Shown here piece by piece: positions 11,070 through 18,159 of a DNA stretch of 64,000 nt. Below the pieces are notes generated by a model, which made no database searches, was not told where the DNA came from, and saw nothing but the letters and a program-made list of their open reading frames with translations. Source of the stretch: an uncultured Alphaproteobacteria bacterium (GTDB lineage: Bacteria; Pseudomonadota; Alphaproteobacteria; Rhodobacterales; Rhodobacteraceae); assembly GCA_902524845.1 (NCBI GenBank), contig CABZEW010000004.1:19785-83784 (forward strand), read 5' to 3'. Each line of letters starts with the position of its first letter. Within the stretch, counting starts at the first letter, position 1. The position numbers and the translations under genes are program-made.

Positions 11070-11118
11070 CAATGGTGAGCCCGACAGGGTTCGAACCTGT
11101 GACCCACTGATTAAAAGT
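11070..11118 (-). repeat. att direct repeat (displaced tRNA-Lys 3' half)
   Basis: caatggtgagcccgacagggttcgaacctgtgacccactgattaaaagt, identical to 18081-18129; homology continues with 2 mismatches to 11127 then stops. Confidence 0.95.
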
Positions 11119-11243
11119 TAGTCGCTCATATGTTATCATAGATCATTATGCCTTTCATATGTATTTTAAAATATTGTTATTTTATTGGTATATTTGTATA
11201 ATATGAAAAATACGTTATCACTAAATAAAATGCAATATTACAA

Positions 11244-11266
11244 TAAATGTTTCCCCAGAGTTTCCC
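11244..11266 (+). repeat. subterminal repeat, candidate integrase arm site (left copy)
   Basis: TAAATGTTTCCCCAGAGTTTCCC; 21/23 match to 18013-18035, with two GTTTCCC units spaced 11 nt. Confidence 0.6.
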
Positions 11267-11269
11267 TAT

Positions 11270-12430
11270 ATGTCCAAAGAAGTAAACTTTACTGAAATAT
11301 GGTTGAAGAAAATAAAAGCACCCAAAATTGGTCGAGAAGAATACAAAGATAAGGGATGTAAAGGGCTTATTCTGCGTGTTACAGCAAATGATGTTAAAAC
11401 ATTTTCTTATCCCTTTCGCTTGGGGGGAAAGACTGGAAGAGTGACGCTTGGAAGATATCCAGACTATGGGTTGCGTACCGCACGTTTAAAAACAGAGGAG
11501 CTTCGAGGACAAATTGCAAGTGGCGTAAATCCTCTAACAATCAAAAAAAATTCAAGAAGGGCAGAAGAATTAACTGTTCAAAGAATGGCGAATGAGTTCA
11601 TTGAACTCTACTCGAAGCCTAGGAATAAAAGCTGGAAGCAAGCCGACAGTAACCTAAAACTTTATTTGATTTCTGTTCTTGGCAACAGACCTATTCATGA
11701 GGTGAGAAGACGAGATATCCATTCAATTCTGGATGATTTAACGGCGGAAAAAAAATTTACAACCTGTAATCGTGCATTAGCCCACATGAAGAGATTCTTT
11801 GGGTGGCTTGTCGAAAGAGAGTATTTAGAGCACTCTCCTGTAGATCGTATCAAGCCTAGACACGTGGAACAGCCCAGAGAAAGGGTGCTGTCAGATGACG
11901 AAATCAAAGCTATCTGGGAGTCATTAGATAATATGAGTGCACCCTATAGACATTGGATTAAACTCCTATTTCTTTGCGGTCAAAGAGAGGAAGAAACCGC
12001 TGGATTAAGAAGAGGGCAATTGGAAAAAGATATCTGGTTATTAGGTTCAGAGGATACAAAGAATAAGACACAAAGCACAGTGCCGCTTACTAGCCAGTCA
12101 AAGGCTATAATTGATTCCTTAAGCAGCTGTAATCAGAATTTTTTGCTAAGCACGGGCAGGATTGGAGATAGACCTATAAACGGGTTTTCCAGAGCAAAAA
12201 GAAAGATTGATCGACTGAGTGGAATTGAAGGCTGGAGGTGGCATGACATAAGACGAACAGTCAGTACTAATCTTGCAAAACTAGGGTATGATATTTCCCT
12301 CATTAAAAGAATAATTAATCACAAAGATACCGGTGTAACAGCTGTCTATAATAGATACTCCTACCTTGAAGAAAAGCGAAGTGCACTACAAGCTTGGGCA
12401 AATAAGTTAGATGACATCACAAAACAATAA
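11270..12430 (+). CDS. tyrosine-type (P4-like) site-specific integrase
   Basis: DUF4102-like N-term; catalytic block RWHDIRRTVSTNLAKLGYD...INHKDTGVTAVYNRY; adjacent to tRNA att repeat. Confidence 0.93.
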   Translation: MSKEVNFTEIWLKKIKAPKIGREEYKDKGCKGLILRVTANDVKTFSYPFRLGGKTGRVTLGRYPDYGLRTARLKTEELRGQIASGVNPLTIKKNSRRAEELTVQRMANEFIELYSKPRNKSWKQADSNLKLYLISVLGNRPIHEVRRRDIHSILDDLTAEKKFTTCNRALAHMKRFFGWLVEREYLEHSPVDRIKPRHVEQPRERVLSDDEIKAIWESLDNMSAPYRHWIKLLFLCGQREEETAGLRRGQLEKDIWLLGSEDTKNKTQSTVPLTSQSKAIIDSLSSCNQNFLLSTGRIGDRPINGFSRAKRKIDRLSGIEGWRWHDIRRTVSTNLAKLGYDISLIKRIINHKDTGVTAVYNRYSYLEEKRSALQAWANKLDDITKQ

Positions 12431-12950
12431 CGACATAAAAATATTAGCTTCCAAATTAGATGAAGCTCAGAAACAGATAAATCTCAATACTGAAGAAGGC
12501 CGGTTTGAAGGAGTTTTTAATACGATTACCGAGATAATAAATTTTCTAAAATCTACTGAACCCAATTTAAATACAAAGACACTACACCTATTGCTTGCTG
12601 AAATAACAAACATTTACAATGGTGCTAAACCCTCTCTACTTAAAAGAACCGAAGAGCTCGGTCCGGGTAGACCCATTTCTACACCTGATAACTCTTACAA
12701 AGCTCTGAAAATTGCTGCCATCGAATTGATGATTGATAGTGGCATTAAACCAAACGAGGCTATAAAGAAAGCAGCCAGCATAACTAAAGAGTCTGCGAAC
12801 TCATTAAGGTCCCAGAGAAAAGAATTGAAGTCGAATAAATTCGATCCCGAAATTACTAAGCTTATGTATCGTTTTAAGAAAAAGTACGCAGGTCAAGATG
12901 GGATAAACCTATTAAAGATTTATAAAGCTTTTCCAAAAATAGTTGGTTAA
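12411..12950 (+). CDS. hypothetical protein of the integrative element
   Basis: ORF overlapping the integrase 3' end by 20 bp; no family recognised. Confidence 0.55.
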   Translation: MTSQNNNDIKILASKLDEAQKQINLNTEEGRFEGVFNTITEIINFLKSTEPNLNTKTLHLLLAEITNIYNGAKPSLLKRTEELGPGRPISTPDNSYKALKIAAIELMIDSGIKPNEAIKKAASITKESANSLRSQRKELKSNKFDPEITKLMYRFKKKYAGQDGINLLKIYKAFPKIVG

Positions 12951-12967
12951 TCCCCCTATTAACCAAC
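12942..12967. terminator. stem-loop at the end of the int operon
   Basis: GTTGGTTAAT-CCCCCT-ATTAACCAAC, 10-bp perfect inverted repeat. Confidence 0.5.
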
Positions 12968-12984
12968 CAAAATAAAAGTGACGC

Positions 12985-13001
12985 TTATGTTTGAAACATA
13001 A
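12985..13001. promoter_or_regulatory. 17-bp palindrome upstream of alpA, candidate operator
   Basis: TTATGTTT-G-AAACATAA perfect inverted repeat 20 bp upstream of the AlpA start. Confidence 0.5.
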
Positions 13002-13020
13002 CAGACATAGGAGTTAAAAA

Positions 13021-13224
13021 ATGAAATTACTTAAAGCTAAAGAAGTTGCAGCCAGAACAAGCTTCTCAATCCCACACATACATAGGCTTGCAAGAGATGG
13101 CAAATTTCCAAAACCTGTAAAGATTAGCGAAAGTCGAAATGGTTGGCTGGAAGATGATGTAAATAATTGGATTCAAAAATGTGTTCGTTCCCATTCAGCA
13201 ATCAGAGAAGAAAAAGATGTTTGA
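13021..13224 (+). CDS. AlpA-family excisionase/transcriptional regulator
   Basis: 67 aa; LLKAKEVAARTSFSIPHIHRLARDGKFPKPVKISESRNGWLEDDVNNWI, MerR-like wHTH typical of AlpA. Confidence 0.85.
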   Translation: MKLLKAKEVAARTSFSIPHIHRLARDGKFPKPVKISESRNGWLEDDVNNWIQKCVRSHSAIREEKDV

Positions 13225-14131
13225 TAATGACGATAGCAACTTCAAGAGAGAGTTTCCTAATATAAAGACCTTATCTGAAATACTCTCTTTAGACTTACCT
13301 CCTCAAGAGTGGCTCATTAAAGACTTTCTTCCGGTTGGAACGACGTTATTGGTTGGCCCACCTAAAATTGGAAAGTCTTATTTTGTTTTGTATTTGATGA
13401 GTAGGATATTAGAGCAGGATAAAGGAGCGTTTTATTATGCAGGAGAAGACGATGCTAGAAGACTTAAACTACGACTTACTCAATTAGGGCTTGAAAACGG
13501 AGAGGCTCTTTTTCATCCAGGTAGAACCGCACCATTAGGAACTAATCCTATTGCTACAATAAGAAGTATTTTGTCACAAAAAAATAACGTCAAGGCAGCA
13601 TTTATAGATACCATGCATCACATTTTACCTAGGTTAAATAAAAGTAGAGATTATGAAAGCTATGTTCATGATTTGAAGCCTTGGTCTGAACTAGCCGTTT
13701 CTTTGAATAAAAGTATTCTTATGGTTCATCATACTCGAAAAGAGAACAATGAAGCAGAAAATAATCCATACAATTCAATCCTCGGAAGCCAAGGGATAAT
13801 GGCTAGCTTTGATAATATAATGATTATGAAAAAGTCATCTGATGCCAAAGGCACTGTACTGAATGTAATAGGTAAGGACGTAGAGGAAAAAGAGTATAGG
13901 TTGAAGAAGATGCATGTAGGTTGGGAAATAGAGGGGTTGGAAAGTGAAGCGTCCCTGGGCAATACTCAAACAAAAGTATTTGCGTTGATAAAATCTAGTC
14001 CCGGATTATGTCGGTCTCGAATAAACGATAAGCTAACACTAGACGGAAGTTATCTAACCAAAATAATAAAGAAGTTGCTCTACAAGAACTTGATAGAAGA
14101 GGTTGAGGACAGGTTTTATCCTATCAAATAA
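13217..14131 (+). CDS. RepA-like AAA ATPase (AAA_25, hexameric replicative helicase-like)
   Basis: PPQEWLIKDFLPVGTTLLVGPPKIGKSYFVLYLMSRIL (Walker A), YYAGEDDARRLKLRL, AAFIDTMHHILP, LMVHHTRKE; start chosen at MFDNDD overlapping alpA. Confidence 0.82.
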   Translation: MFDNDDSNFKREFPNIKTLSEILSLDLPPQEWLIKDFLPVGTTLLVGPPKIGKSYFVLYLMSRILEQDKGAFYYAGEDDARRLKLRLTQLGLENGEALFHPGRTAPLGTNPIATIRSILSQKNNVKAAFIDTMHHILPRLNKSRDYESYVHDLKPWSELAVSLNKSILMVHHTRKENNEAENNPYNSILGSQGIMASFDNIMIMKKSSDAKGTVLNVIGKDVEEKEYRLKKMHVGWEIEGLESEASLGNTQTKVFALIKSSPGLCRSRINDKLTLDGSYLTKIIKKLLYKNLIEEVEDRFYPIK

Positions 14132-14134
14132 TAC

Positions 14135-14200
14135 CCTGTCCACATTATCCAATCTGTCCATATCATACAAATAGTGGACACTATGGATAGCATGGACAGG
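14135..14200. repeat. iteron-like inverted array: three 9-bp direct repeats facing three inverted copies
   Basis: TGTCCAcat TATCCAatc TGTCCA | 14-nt spacer | TGGACActa TGGATAgca TGGACA; 26-bp arms at 14135-14160 and 14175-14200. Confidence 0.8.
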
Positions 14201-14370
14201 AGTCAATTCGAGAGTTTATCCGAATAAGAAATGTAGCAAACTCAAGTTTCAGATACCTCACTATAAAACTTTATTAAAACTTATAAATTATTTAAAATGC
14301 TATGAACGTAGTAATTTTTGAGTCAATTTTTGTCAAATTTGTTTTAATATGTTCCTGAAGGATAGAACTT

Positions 14371-17274
14371 ATGACTTTGTTAAAGAAAAGATTGTTAAAA
14401 ATTACCCCACTTCTTATAGCTTTTTTGTCTCTTTGGAGTACCGGATTTGCTCAGCTTACGGACGGTGAAGATAAGCTTTATGGGGTAAAATCAACAGGAG
14501 GTTCAACACAAGATTGGGGAACAATAGCCCCCTCGTCCGGAACATTTACGCGCATAACGCATATATCTCCAACTGGTTTAGGTTGGCCATTAGGGGACAT
14601 TGGCTCTGAGCCTGATCCAATAAGTGGTATGGTTTACACTCGTCAAACCAACAACAGCAGTGGCCAAGTTGATATTTTATCGATTAAAAAAAGTGATGGT
14701 TCAACAAGCTGGTTAGGCCTTGGCGTAAACGATTTGGTAGTAGGATTCGATAGTAAGGGCAATAAACTCATTTATAGAACGAGCGAAAGTTCTACAAATA
14801 CGTTGAAGTCTTATGATCCTGCGTATTCTTGTGAAATTGGAACACAATATTGTAGTGGGGCTACAGCGACAATAGGAACGTTTGGTGGTTCAAGTACTAG
14901 CTGGCAAGCAGGAGGAATAGGAGCAGTTGACAGCTATGGAAGAACGGCTTTTCAGCTTCGGCCGAATACAACATCAACGCTTTACAAAATCAATCTAGAC
15001 GATGGTACAGAAACTACAGTTTCAATATCAGCCTACATAACAACAATTGCTTGGGATAGCAAAGGACAAAAATTGTATGGATTATATGATTCCAATAGCA
15101 ATGGAGCGTACAGAGTAGCGGAAATAAATACGTCTGATGGTTCCCTTACCAATGTGGGTAATGCTGATACGGTGGCAGGGATGTCCAACTATGTACAATT
15201 AATAGCGCCAAATGACCAAAGATATTATATACAAGAGAGCTCTTCTACAATAAGGGCAATATCTTTAACTGATGGTTCTAACTTAGGGTCTTTTTCTTCT
15301 ATATTACGCATAATGCCTGTAGGAGCTGTTGTGATGGGAGCGGCATCCTCTGCCGAAAGTGTGACTTTCGATATAGCTGACCCAGATAGTAAAATTGTAA
15401 AAATGGGCGCTAATACGGTTACATATACTGGAACGAATAGTTCATCGGGGGGTGTTGATATTGAAGCTGGAACGTTAAAAGTTGCTGGTTCAACAAACCT
15501 TGGCACCGGAGCAGTTTCGTTAGAAGGAGGAGAGCTAGAGCTATCAGCAGCGTCCACCATCACTAATGCGATATCGTCTTCGGATAATGACAGTGCGATA
15601 GACACGGGCAGCAACGCAGTAACAATATCGGGAACAATAACGGGAGCGTCAGAGATAAATAAGACTGGTCTCGGTACTCTCACCCTAACGGGTAGTCACA
15701 GCAATACCGGTGGCTTAGACATAAACAATGGTATTTTAGTTGCTAATGGGACAGGCACGACACCGGTCACTGTTACGTCCGGCACTCTCCAAGGAACAGG
15801 AACTATTGGTAACTTAACATCCAATTCAACGGTTAACCCTGGTAATTCAATTGGTACTTTAAATGTCTCGGGTGCTGTTACATTAAATTCTGGGTCGGTT
15901 TTAGTAATTGAGGTTGATACAGCAGGAAACAACGATAAAATTACAGCAACTGGAGCTATCACAGCTGGAGGAACGTTAAGAGTAAGTCCAGCAAGTGGAA
16001 CGTACACAAACGGACAGACCTTTACAATTATAACGGGTTCCAGCGTCTCGGGTACATTCTCAACTATCTCTGTTTTAAGCTGTAGTGGAACCGCTAGTGC
16101 AACCTATGGGTCAACATCTATAACCTTCGCTTTATCAAACTGTGGTGTGAACAAAAACGAGAATAGAGATACGCTTGTAAGCTATGTGAATGATGTAAGC
16201 GGAAGTGCAACGGGCGATTTAAGTACCGTACTTACGGCGCTTAATGCTCTAACAGGTGATACCTACAATGCGGCAGTAGAGAGCCTTGATTTTAATGCCG
16301 GTAATAGTATTGCGTTCTCCAATCAGCAACAAATTGCGTCGGTTAACAATATTGTTAGACAAAACCTCGTCTCTTCAAAAGGAGAGGGTGATACGGAAAT
16401 ATCTGATGATGAGCGCTCATGGATAAGTCTAGGTGCCTCGGGCTGGTGGGTTCGTGGATATGGAGGAAGTGGTGAACAAAAAAAACTAGATAGCTTAGGT
16501 ATTAATGGGTCAGATTATAGCTACTTTGGAACCACAGTAGGGTACGACTTCGGCGGTGGCATTGGAACCCAAGGGGTAGCATTAACTGTTCAGGGAGGAA
16601 CAAATACAAGTAAAAATTCAGAGGGTAAGAGTACATATACCTCTATGGGTATCTCCCGGTTTAAATCCGAACAGGAAGATAATGGGAACAGATTTACCTC
16701 CAATATCTCATTAATATTCAATCTGATTGACTCACAAAGAGATATAAGCATCGGTGCCATCTCTAGAACGGCTAAAGCAAGCTACAATGCTTACTCTTTG
16801 GATTACAGTGCAGATTATGATTACCAGCCAACCGAAGTTTATGGAGCATCAAACGCCTTGTCTTTGCATTCTGGTATAACCGCAGGCTACCAAGATGGAT
16901 TTACAGAAACTGGGGCTAATTCGCTTAACTTAACAGTTAAGGGGGCATCTAACCTAGTTGCTAGAGCAGGAGTAAGCAACACTATTTCCTGGGGTGATAA
17001 GAACGACAACCTAAATTCAGTTATACCTTTTGTATCTGCGGGTATCCATACATCCTATAATATTATTAAACCGGAGGTAGAGCAAAGTCTGTCAGGACAA
17101 GCCACAACCTTTAAGACAAATGCTGACCGTAGATTGAATGGATATGCGGAGCTAGGGTTTGGTTTGACATATAAAAGCTCCTACAGCTCTGAGATTGCTT
17201 TTTTAACCAAGGGCAAAGCCTCAGACAGAGGTTCAGAGTATTCAGCAACGCTGGAATATAAGAGGTTATTTTAG
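14371..17274 (+). CDS. autotransporter with repeat-rich beta passenger and C-terminal beta-barrel
   Basis: Signal peptide; GTGTLTLTGS/NTGGLDINNG-type passenger-associated repeats; barrel ending ...SEYSATLEYKRLF with terminal Phe. Confidence 0.87.
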   Translation: MTLLKKRLLKITPLLIAFLSLWSTGFAQLTDGEDKLYGVKSTGGSTQDWGTIAPSSGTFTRITHISPTGLGWPLGDIGSEPDPISGMVYTRQTNNSSGQVDILSIKKSDGSTSWLGLGVNDLVVGFDSKGNKLIYRTSESSTNTLKSYDPAYSCEIGTQYCSGATATIGTFGGSSTSWQAGGIGAVDSYGRTAFQLRPNTTSTLYKINLDDGTETTVSISAYITTIAWDSKGQKLYGLYDSNSNGAYRVAEINTSDGSLTNVGNADTVAGMSNYVQLIAPNDQRYYIQESSSTIRAISLTDGSNLGSFSSILRIMPVGAVVMGAASSAESVTFDIADPDSKIVKMGANTVTYTGTNSSSGGVDIEAGTLKVAGSTNLGTGAVSLEGGELELSAASTITNAISSSDNDSAIDTGSNAVTISGTITGASEINKTGLGTLTLTGSHSNTGGLDINNGILVANGTGTTPVTVTSGTLQGTGTIGNLTSNSTVNPGNSIGTLNVSGAVTLNSGSVLVIEVDTAGNNDKITATGAITAGGTLRVSPASGTYTNGQTFTIITGSSVSGTFSTISVLSCSGTASATYGSTSITFALSNCGVNKNENRDTLVSYVNDVSGSATGDLSTVLTALNALTGDTYNAAVESLDFNAGNSIAFSNQQQIASVNNIVRQNLVSSKGEGDTEISDDERSWISLGASGWWVRGYGGSGEQKKLDSLGINGSDYSYFGTTVGYDFGGGIGTQGVALTVQGGTNTSKNSEGKSTYTSMGISRFKSEQEDNGNRFTSNISLIFNLIDSQRDISIGAISRTAKASYNAYSLDYSADYDYQPTEVYGASNALSLHSGITAGYQDGFTETGANSLNLTVKGASNLVARAGVSNTISWGDKNDNLNSVIPFVSAGIHTSYNIIKPEVEQSLSGQATTFKTNADRRLNGYAELGFGLTYKSSYSSEIAFLTKGKASDRGSEYSATLEYKRLF

Positions 17275-17570
17275 TTATAGGTACTCTTTAAAGTATTGGC
17301 TTAGATAATTTTATCTGAGGAGGTTACTACTAATCGATGACTCCAAAGAGCATGGTAATAAAAAGGAGAAATTTAAGCCAAATGGTACCGTCGATTGATT
17401 GGTTTATGGGAGAATACCTCTGATAATTCTAGATGCTGGGGAAAAGTAAATTTTACTTTTTTAAAAAAAAATGTGAGACCACTATCCCTTGCATTAACAA
17501 GGGTAGGACTTTTGACCCACCCCCTTTATCTCTGGGGAATATTATATCTTTTTAGGTCTGAATTCATACT

Positions 17571-17594
17571 GATTGGGGGATGGATTGGGGGATA
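17571..17594 (+). repeat. 12-bp tandem duplication
   Basis: GATTGGGGGATG GATTGGGGGATA just left of the tRNA-Ser fragment. Confidence 0.7.
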
Positions 17595-17648
17595 GATTAT
17601 CTTACCAAAACGTAAGTAATTGAATAATATAAGGTTTATTGGTTGATA

Positions 17649-17708
17649 TGGCGGAGGTGGTGGGATTCGAACCCACGGTAGACTTTCACCTACGTCGGTT
17701 TTCAAAAC
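17649..17708 (-). pseudogene. tRNA-Ser(TGA) 3'-half fragment (att-like)
   Basis: Reverse strand ggttttgaaaaccgacgtaggtgaaagtctaccgtgggttcgaatcccaccacctccgCCA: anticodon loop TTTGAAA, variable arm, T-loop, G73, CCA; 5' half absent. Confidence 0.85.
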
Positions 17709-17709
17709 C

Positions 17710-18005
17710 TTAGAAAAAATGGTCCGGTAGATAAAGATGGCTTTGAACTATTATTGCGTGAGTGTATTAGCGGTGCATTTGGAGAGGTATTTACTGCAAC
17801 AAAGATAGATATTTCTTTCCCAAAAATTGAAGGAAAAGAAATCTGTTTGGTTAGTGTACGGCCAGTATCAACTCCAAAAGACTTACTTATAGTCAAGAAA
17901 AACAAGAATGGCCAAGAGCACCAGCTTATATATTTAAGAAGTGGTAATAGCTCTCGTACTATTCCGCCCGAAGAATACAGTAGCTTCATTGAAACGAGGT
18001 TTTAA
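17710..18005 (+). pseudogene. C-terminal fragment of AlbA_2/Schlafen-like (putative DNA-binding) protein
   Basis: NGPVDKDGFELLLRECISGAFGEVFTATKIDISFPKIEGKEICLVSVRPVSTP...YLRSGNSSRTIPPEEYSSFIETRF; reading frame runs back into the tRNA-Ser fragment with no native N-terminus. Confidence 0.65.
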
Positions 18006-18012
18006 TTTTGTG

Positions 18013-18035
18013 TAAATGTTTCCCCGGCGTTTCCC
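18013..18035 (+). repeat. subterminal repeat, candidate integrase arm site (right copy)
   Basis: TAAATGTTTCCCCGGCGTTTCCC; same orientation as 11244-11266. Confidence 0.6.
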
Positions 18036-18080
18036 CAGACCCAAACAAGCTTTAGGACAATAACGCTAAGCCTTTGTTTA

Positions 18081-18129
18081 CAATGGTGAGCCCGACAGGG
18101 TTCGAACCTGTGACCCACTGATTAAAAGT
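18081..18129 (-). repeat. att direct repeat inside intact tRNA-Lys
   Basis: Identical to 11070-11118 (offset 7011 bp). Confidence 0.95.
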
Positions 18130-18159
18130 CAGTTGCTCTACCAACTGAGCTACGGGCCC
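18084..18159 (-). tRNA. tRNA-Lys(TTT)
   Basis: GGGCCCGTAGCTCAGTTGGTAGAGCAACTGACTTTTAATCAGTGGGTCACAGGTTCGAACCCTGTCGGGCTCACCA; full cloverleaf, anticodon TTT, encoded CCA. Confidence 0.97.

Follow-up and report, generated by a model that had tools for sequence, protein, structure and literature searches.

How a small chromosomal element without capsid or transfer genes is replicated and spread, and how such an element comes to carry a large surface protein, are the questions raised by the locus described here. It lies in a window of 64,000 nucleotides (the whole stretch of DNA that was analysed) from an uncultured bacterium of the Rhodobacteraceae, known from a draft assembly that is incomplete, comprises 89 contigs and was possibly obtained by single-cell amplification; the comparisons drew on 22 genomes of its genus. 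The element is 7.0 kb long and bounded by exact 49-bp repeats at a tRNA-Lys gene (Table 1), with similarity reaching beyond the exact 49 bp (58/61 bases). The repeated stretch runs from the 3' end of the tRNA to just past its anticodon loop, and the left copy consists of the 3' part only. Within the 64 kb the octamer GTTTCCCC is present at only three places (11249, 18018 and 18029), in every case at one of the two element ends, a distribution that fits integrase arm sites.

Table 1. Positions of the element's features in the window.
Feature	Position	Strand	Evidence
Left attachment repeat, 3' part of tRNA-Lys	11070..11118	.	Identical to 18081-18129; empty site in G003
Left integrase-arm-like site TAAATGTTTCCCCAGAGTTTCCC	11244..11266	+	Direct repeat of 18013-18035
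Tyrosine integrase (int) with arm-binding domain	11270..12430	+	Pfam 7.5e-18 and 3.8e-14; phrog_1 4e-57
ORF2, 179 aa, overlapping int by 20 nt	12411..12950	+	Position like PICMI iolg
AlpA-type regulator/excisionase (alpA)	13021..13224	+	Pfam 9.8e-11; PHROG excisionase 1.4e-11
RepA-like AAA_25 ATPase (repA) with C-terminal winged helix	13217..14131	+	Pfam 1.7e-15; weak MarR match 0.0012; alignment
Iteron array of 9-bp units, three on each side of a 14-bp spacer and inverted on the second side; proposed origin	14134..14201	.	
Autotransporter, 967 aa, with beta-propeller-like passenger; cargo	14371..17274	+	Pfam 6e-14; relative in G006; low-confidence fold
tRNA-Ser(UGA) 3' half, ending at anticodon loop; putatively what is left of a second element's attachment site	17649..17705	-	97% to G000:C27 tRNA-Ser
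GmrSD-Schlafen gene, 3' remnant (gene intact in L024)	17699..18005	+	97.6% identity
Right integrase-arm-like site TAAATGTTTCCCCGGCGTTTCCC	18013..18035	+	Direct repeat of 11244-11266; also in L024
Right attachment repeat, within intact tRNA-Lys gene	18081..18129	.	
tRNA-Lys(UUU), target gene	18084..18159	-	ARAGORN; Rfam 2.4e-15

Matches in Pfam and PHROGs bear out the order of integrase, AlpA, RepA-like AAA protein and autotransporter given by an earlier sequence-only reading of this DNA, and both coordinates of the identical 49-bp repeats that it had placed over the 3' half of tRNA-Lys are correct. Its further claim that capsid, terminase and relaxase genes are missing also holds among the element's genes, where the same two databases revealed no capsid, terminase, relaxase or conjugation gene and, specifically, no terminase small subunit (TerS) or capsid-remodelling gene. 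A conjugative or mobilizable element was rejected on the lack of relaxase and conjugation genes. ORF2 has no family match in Pfam or PHROGs, and its structure model, with a pLDDT of 56, is of too low quality for interpretation. The alpA and repA genes overlap, with no RepB-type primase gene between them, and RepA returned only weak RadA and winged-helix matches in a sequence search of the PDB.

The target tRNA-Lys is flanked by mtnA and dapF, and in a congener, G003, the genes mtnA, tRNA-Lys and dapF are contiguous, forming an uninterrupted site. When the two flanks of the window element are joined, they align with G003 across the junction without a gap (383/418 identical). The locus thus combines tRNA-derived direct repeats, a tyrosine integrase and an empty site in a relative, as a tRNA-integrated mobile element should, and the same segment is not carried by all relatives at this position. 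No integrase similar to any of the five tested was found within the 4 to 15 kb upstream of the tRNA in the other relatives examined. At the same tRNA-Lys, G010 holds an unrelated 8.8-kb element (L023:2918-11819; integrase 23% identical), which has a repeat of 47-53 bp and whose genes are mostly unknown. A multi-copy element was considered and rejected, as the attachment sequence is present only twice in the genome draft.

A twin of the window element was found in G004 (single cell AG-911-I18), where the same int-ORF-alpA-repA core is inserted at the same tRNA-Lys. The two cores share 96.5% nucleotide identity over 3.2 kb, whereas the stretch with the right-end flank is about 84-85% identical, and we conclude from this difference that the core moved recently. 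Synonymous divergence in the core (dS 0.03-0.25) is likewise far below that of dapF (0.83), with a core dN/dS of about 0.08-0.16. Homology between the two elements ends at ~14302 and resumes at 17699 within a Schlafen gene. What lies behind repA is therefore exchangeable: the G004 slot encodes a type I methyltransferase (4e-150), specificity subunit (6e-73) and restriction subunit (1.5e-134), together with a PD-(D/E)XK protein and a fusion of GmrSD and Schlafen parts (717 aa, GmrSD_N/SLFN_AlbA_2), and the window slot encodes a surface protein. The empty site of the sister species and this recently shared core with other cargo substantiate the mobile integrative element that had been suspected from the letters of the sequence. 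A single chromosomal site thus offers a natural series, from empty, to core with defence system, to core with surface protein.

The right part of the window element proved to be a composite, in which the 3' end of the Schlafen gene is fused to the 3' half of a tRNA-Ser within a 7-bp core at the anticodon loop. The Schlafen remnant (83 aa, 97.6% identical) makes up the last 0.3 kb of the element. The tRNA-Ser(UGA) fragment, bounded exactly by CCA end and anticodon loop, lies just before the point where Schlafen homology resumes, and the 7-bp sequence TTTTCAA at this junction is common to tRNA-Ser(UGA), the window and L024, where the Schlafen gene is intact. Seven bases at the anticodon loop are a usual overlap for a tyrosine integrase. 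The simplest reading, including the order of events, is that a tRNA-Ser element used the Schlafen gene as a secondary integration site and that a deletion followed, which would make the junction the trace of one mobile element inside another's defence gene, at a tRNA look-alike. The tRNA-Ser fragment, the GmrSD-Schlafen remnant and the integrase-arm-like sites had all escaped the sequence-only reading.

The junction between tRNA-Ser, Schlafen gene and autotransporter might instead be an artefact of amplification or assembly, the real element then carrying defence or other cargo. The draft is incomplete and spread over 89 contigs, and amplification chimeras use short homologies, of which 7 bp is an example. 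Against this, the fragment has precisely the extent, CCA end to anticodon loop, that an attachment site should have; it is 97% identical to the host's own tRNA-Ser and, since it differs from that gene, was not copied from it; and the autotransporter adjoins a tRNA-Ser in G006 as well. We therefore regard an artefact as very improbable and retain secondary integration followed by deletion as the preferred account.

The only relative of the autotransporter in the genus is this G006 gene, which is 79% identical in the C-terminal half and about 41% identical over most of the passenger. The element that carries it is 5.9 kb long, lies at tRNA-Ser(GCU) and also encodes TerS (phrog_51 5.9e-18, Pfam 2.3e-11), an integrase, a DnaD-like loader and an ORF that overlaps int. 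A second integrase and a TerS-like ORF stand directly past the distal repeat of this element, as if two elements were in tandem (L045:8474-15837). Related TerS genes were found in 9/22 genomes of the genus, and a tRNA-Ser precedes them by a few hundred bases at the six loci that were read. These genes follow tRNA-Ser with UGA, GGA or GCU anticodons (L126, L127, L128, L130, L132 and L045), mostly with no integrase detected nearby, and may represent decayed satellites or a recurring satellite family of tRNA-Ser. Behind the host's own tRNA-Ser(UGA), too, stand an integrase and a TerS-like ORF (L053:14537-16478), making this a second integrated element in the same genome. Because its G006 relative resides in a TerS element, and because TerS adjoins tRNA-Ser in this genus, the autotransporter probably arrived from an element of the TerS type.

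The surface protein had been described as cargo from the outset, and cargo it is, but it appears to have come secondarily into a slot that holds defence genes in relatives. Its passenger model is of low confidence, and only the beta-propeller class was taken from it. Speculatively, a conserved barrel whose exposed domain varies would fit a role in adhesion or in the masking of phage receptors.

Directly 3' of repA lie the iterons that had been announced for this element, as two inverted arms of three units each. In 13/13 RepA loci tested, the array right after the stop codon scored 39 to 50, higher than any of the 83 control windows at that locus (best control 31 to 36), by a score that was devised after the pattern had been noticed; two further loci show a 3+3 array, giving 15 in total. 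Similar RepA proteins are not independent, and the 15 arrays represent about seven unit types. The array is found within about 10 bp of repA. Other measurable AAA_25 or fused proteins had no standout array score, with one borderline exception (L120). A period of 9 is the best in most arrays, with 9-then-8 spacing in some, and the units differ between elements (TGTCCA, GATAAC, GATCAC, ATCAAC, CTCAAC, TTCACA, TTAAGT). Similarity between units tracks similarity between winged helices when the ATPase domain is corrected for (partial r 0.26, permutation p 0.012, n=14), a modest covariation obtained with a rough unit metric.

We propose from these patterns that the array is the replication origin. 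RepA is probably a hexameric helicase and, given the six units, one unit may serve each subunit of the hexamer. Replication of its own, as had been suggested for the element, is thus supported by RepA and the conserved six-iteron array, if indirectly. A transcription terminator or an autoregulatory operator would also account for a position just after a stop codon and for inverted arms that could form a hairpin. Regular 9-bp direct repeats within each arm would, however, be unexpected in a terminator, the array is not at a promoter, and its unit follows the winged helix of RepA, so that we consider either function unlikely. Returning to the proposed origin, a broader rule may tentatively be put forward, although we lean somewhat against its holding in full: the 3+3 array would be the origin of widespread, unnamed, defence-carrying integrative elements of alphaproteobacteria, with one iteron per subunit of the RepA hexamer, and iteron and winged helix would change together so that co-resident elements avoid cross-replication. 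Such a rule, six iterons directly behind the gene of a likely hexameric helicase and a unit that varies between elements, is testable, and could be used to find and classify these elements and to predict which of them can share a cell.

Homologues of RepA, about 20 to 33% identical, are scattered through the same family and class. In most of the neighbourhoods examined int lies upstream, many have alpA in between in the same order, and an int-overlapping ORF is often present. In L061 a RepB-type primase gene (PF16793 7e-10) stands between alpA and repA, with an ORF of similar size in several others, and in L062 RepA is fused to what was judged by eye to be a primase-like N terminus; both associations support a role for RepA in replication. 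Near tRNA-Met in L061 (4362-14132), int, overlapping ORF, AlpA, RepB primase, RepA and iterons are accompanied by a pair of DRT3 reverse transcriptases. In related elements the cargo, assigned by its position behind the array rather than by mapped element ends, is type I restriction (L084, L085), Gabija (L088) or DRT3 (L061). The window copy is unusual within this group in having a surface protein in the cargo position. Behind the array of one related element are a 1534-aa ORF and an RTX-like ORF (L083:975-5579), which may be a further case of a secreted or surface protein carried as cargo. As to the undescribed family suggested by the sequence-only reading, our literature searches, which were narrow and left many journals uncovered, found no paper that names these RepA/iteron cores or describes the array.

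Taken together, we consider it likely that the element works as follows. It would target the anticodon loop of tRNA-Lys, where Int would excise a circle at the 49-bp repeats by way of the arm sites at the ends, with the aid of AlpA and perhaps of the gene that overlaps int. The C-terminal winged helices of RepA would bind the six iterons just behind repA, and replication would start there. The cargo slot would lie beyond this proposed origin, and is occupied in the closest relative by type I restriction and GmrSD-Schlafen genes. A tRNA-Ser-type element with the autotransporter would have integrated by mistake into the Schlafen gene at the 7-bp anticodon-loop match, and the defence genes would later have been lost by deletion, along with the second integrase. 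Spread would probably occur with a helper, most likely a phage, and this is the weakest step.

Two other views of the transfer route deserve weight. The element could be a strict phage satellite, induced and packaged by a helper in the manner of PICMI and lacking a packaging gene of its own. PICMI have the same order of int, overlapping gene, alpA, replication gene and accessory gene, and no capsid genes, and TerS elements, which are typical of satellites, are common at tRNA-Ser in this genus. These TerS elements are, however, separate tRNA-Ser elements, the window element has neither a PICMI-type primase nor TerS, and neither viral contigs nor phages yielded a close relative: a search of viral contigs with int, ORF2, repA, TerS and the autotransporter recovered one distant integrase only. 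We give a strict satellite close to an even chance. A second view, possible but in our opinion more doubtful than probable, is an integrative plasmid-like or defence island that moves by general means only (generalised transduction, natural uptake or gene transfer agents) and uses RepA for maintenance after excision. The element has no packaging or transfer gene, RepA and iterons would suffice for replication, and RepA has relatives on small plasmids, at below 30% identity; in phage and plasmid records generally, RepA matches stay below 30% identity, and ORF2 and the core DNA are absent. The site-specific sharing of a 96.5% identical core between flanks of about 84% nevertheless implies efficient transfer.

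Among known systems, tycheposons and VEIME are mobile islands that use tRNA sites and carry variable cargo, and the window element is likewise a mobile island of marine bacteria, a likeness at the level of general description. P4 and the SaPIs combine a helicase-type initiator with short iterons, and the origin of the SaPIs, located 3' of rep, has two sets of iterons. The RepA described here differs in being an AAA_25 protein without a fused primase, and the 3+3 array of 9-bp iterons has a short spacer, where the others have a long AT-rich region. Once induced, P4 and SaPI replicate autonomously, with replication proteins that have primase and helicase activity (PMC7145576). A PICI of the TerS type was rejected, TerS and capsid-remodelling genes being absent here and TerS belonging to the tRNA-Ser element of G006. 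In Pseudomonas, the defence islands I23, I44 and I55 are integrated at tmRNA, and one of them was moved by a jumbo phage (PMC12595487). They resemble the window element in their tyrosine integrase and AlpA, RNA-gene target, swappable defence cargo and lack of transfer genes, and differ in target gene, size (7-13 kb here), gene order and replication genes. A paper on Agrobacterium (PMC6630229) was dropped as a parallel, as it concerns ordinary phages.

The nearest likeness in layout is to the PICMI of Vibrionaceae, which are small, are flanked by direct repeats, lack capsid genes and are built of int, an int-overlapping gene (in most members, though not all), alpA, a primase gene and an accessory defence gene (PMC10803314). 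The search model in that paper, which also names tycheposons and VEIME of marine bacteria, treats the fis site as mandatory in its final version and as optional in its first (PMC10803314). The window element shares with PICMI a co-located integrase and AlpA and the 20-nt overlap between int and ORF2. We do not file it as a PICMI because the primase and fis site required of members are both lacking: there is no DUF3987/DUF5906 primase match in the element, which has an AAA_25 RepA with iterons instead, and the site is tRNA-Lys. Its cargo is also larger and exchangeable, and packaging by a helper, a trait of PICMI, is only conjectural for it. By analogy of layout, it may nonetheless work like a PICMI.
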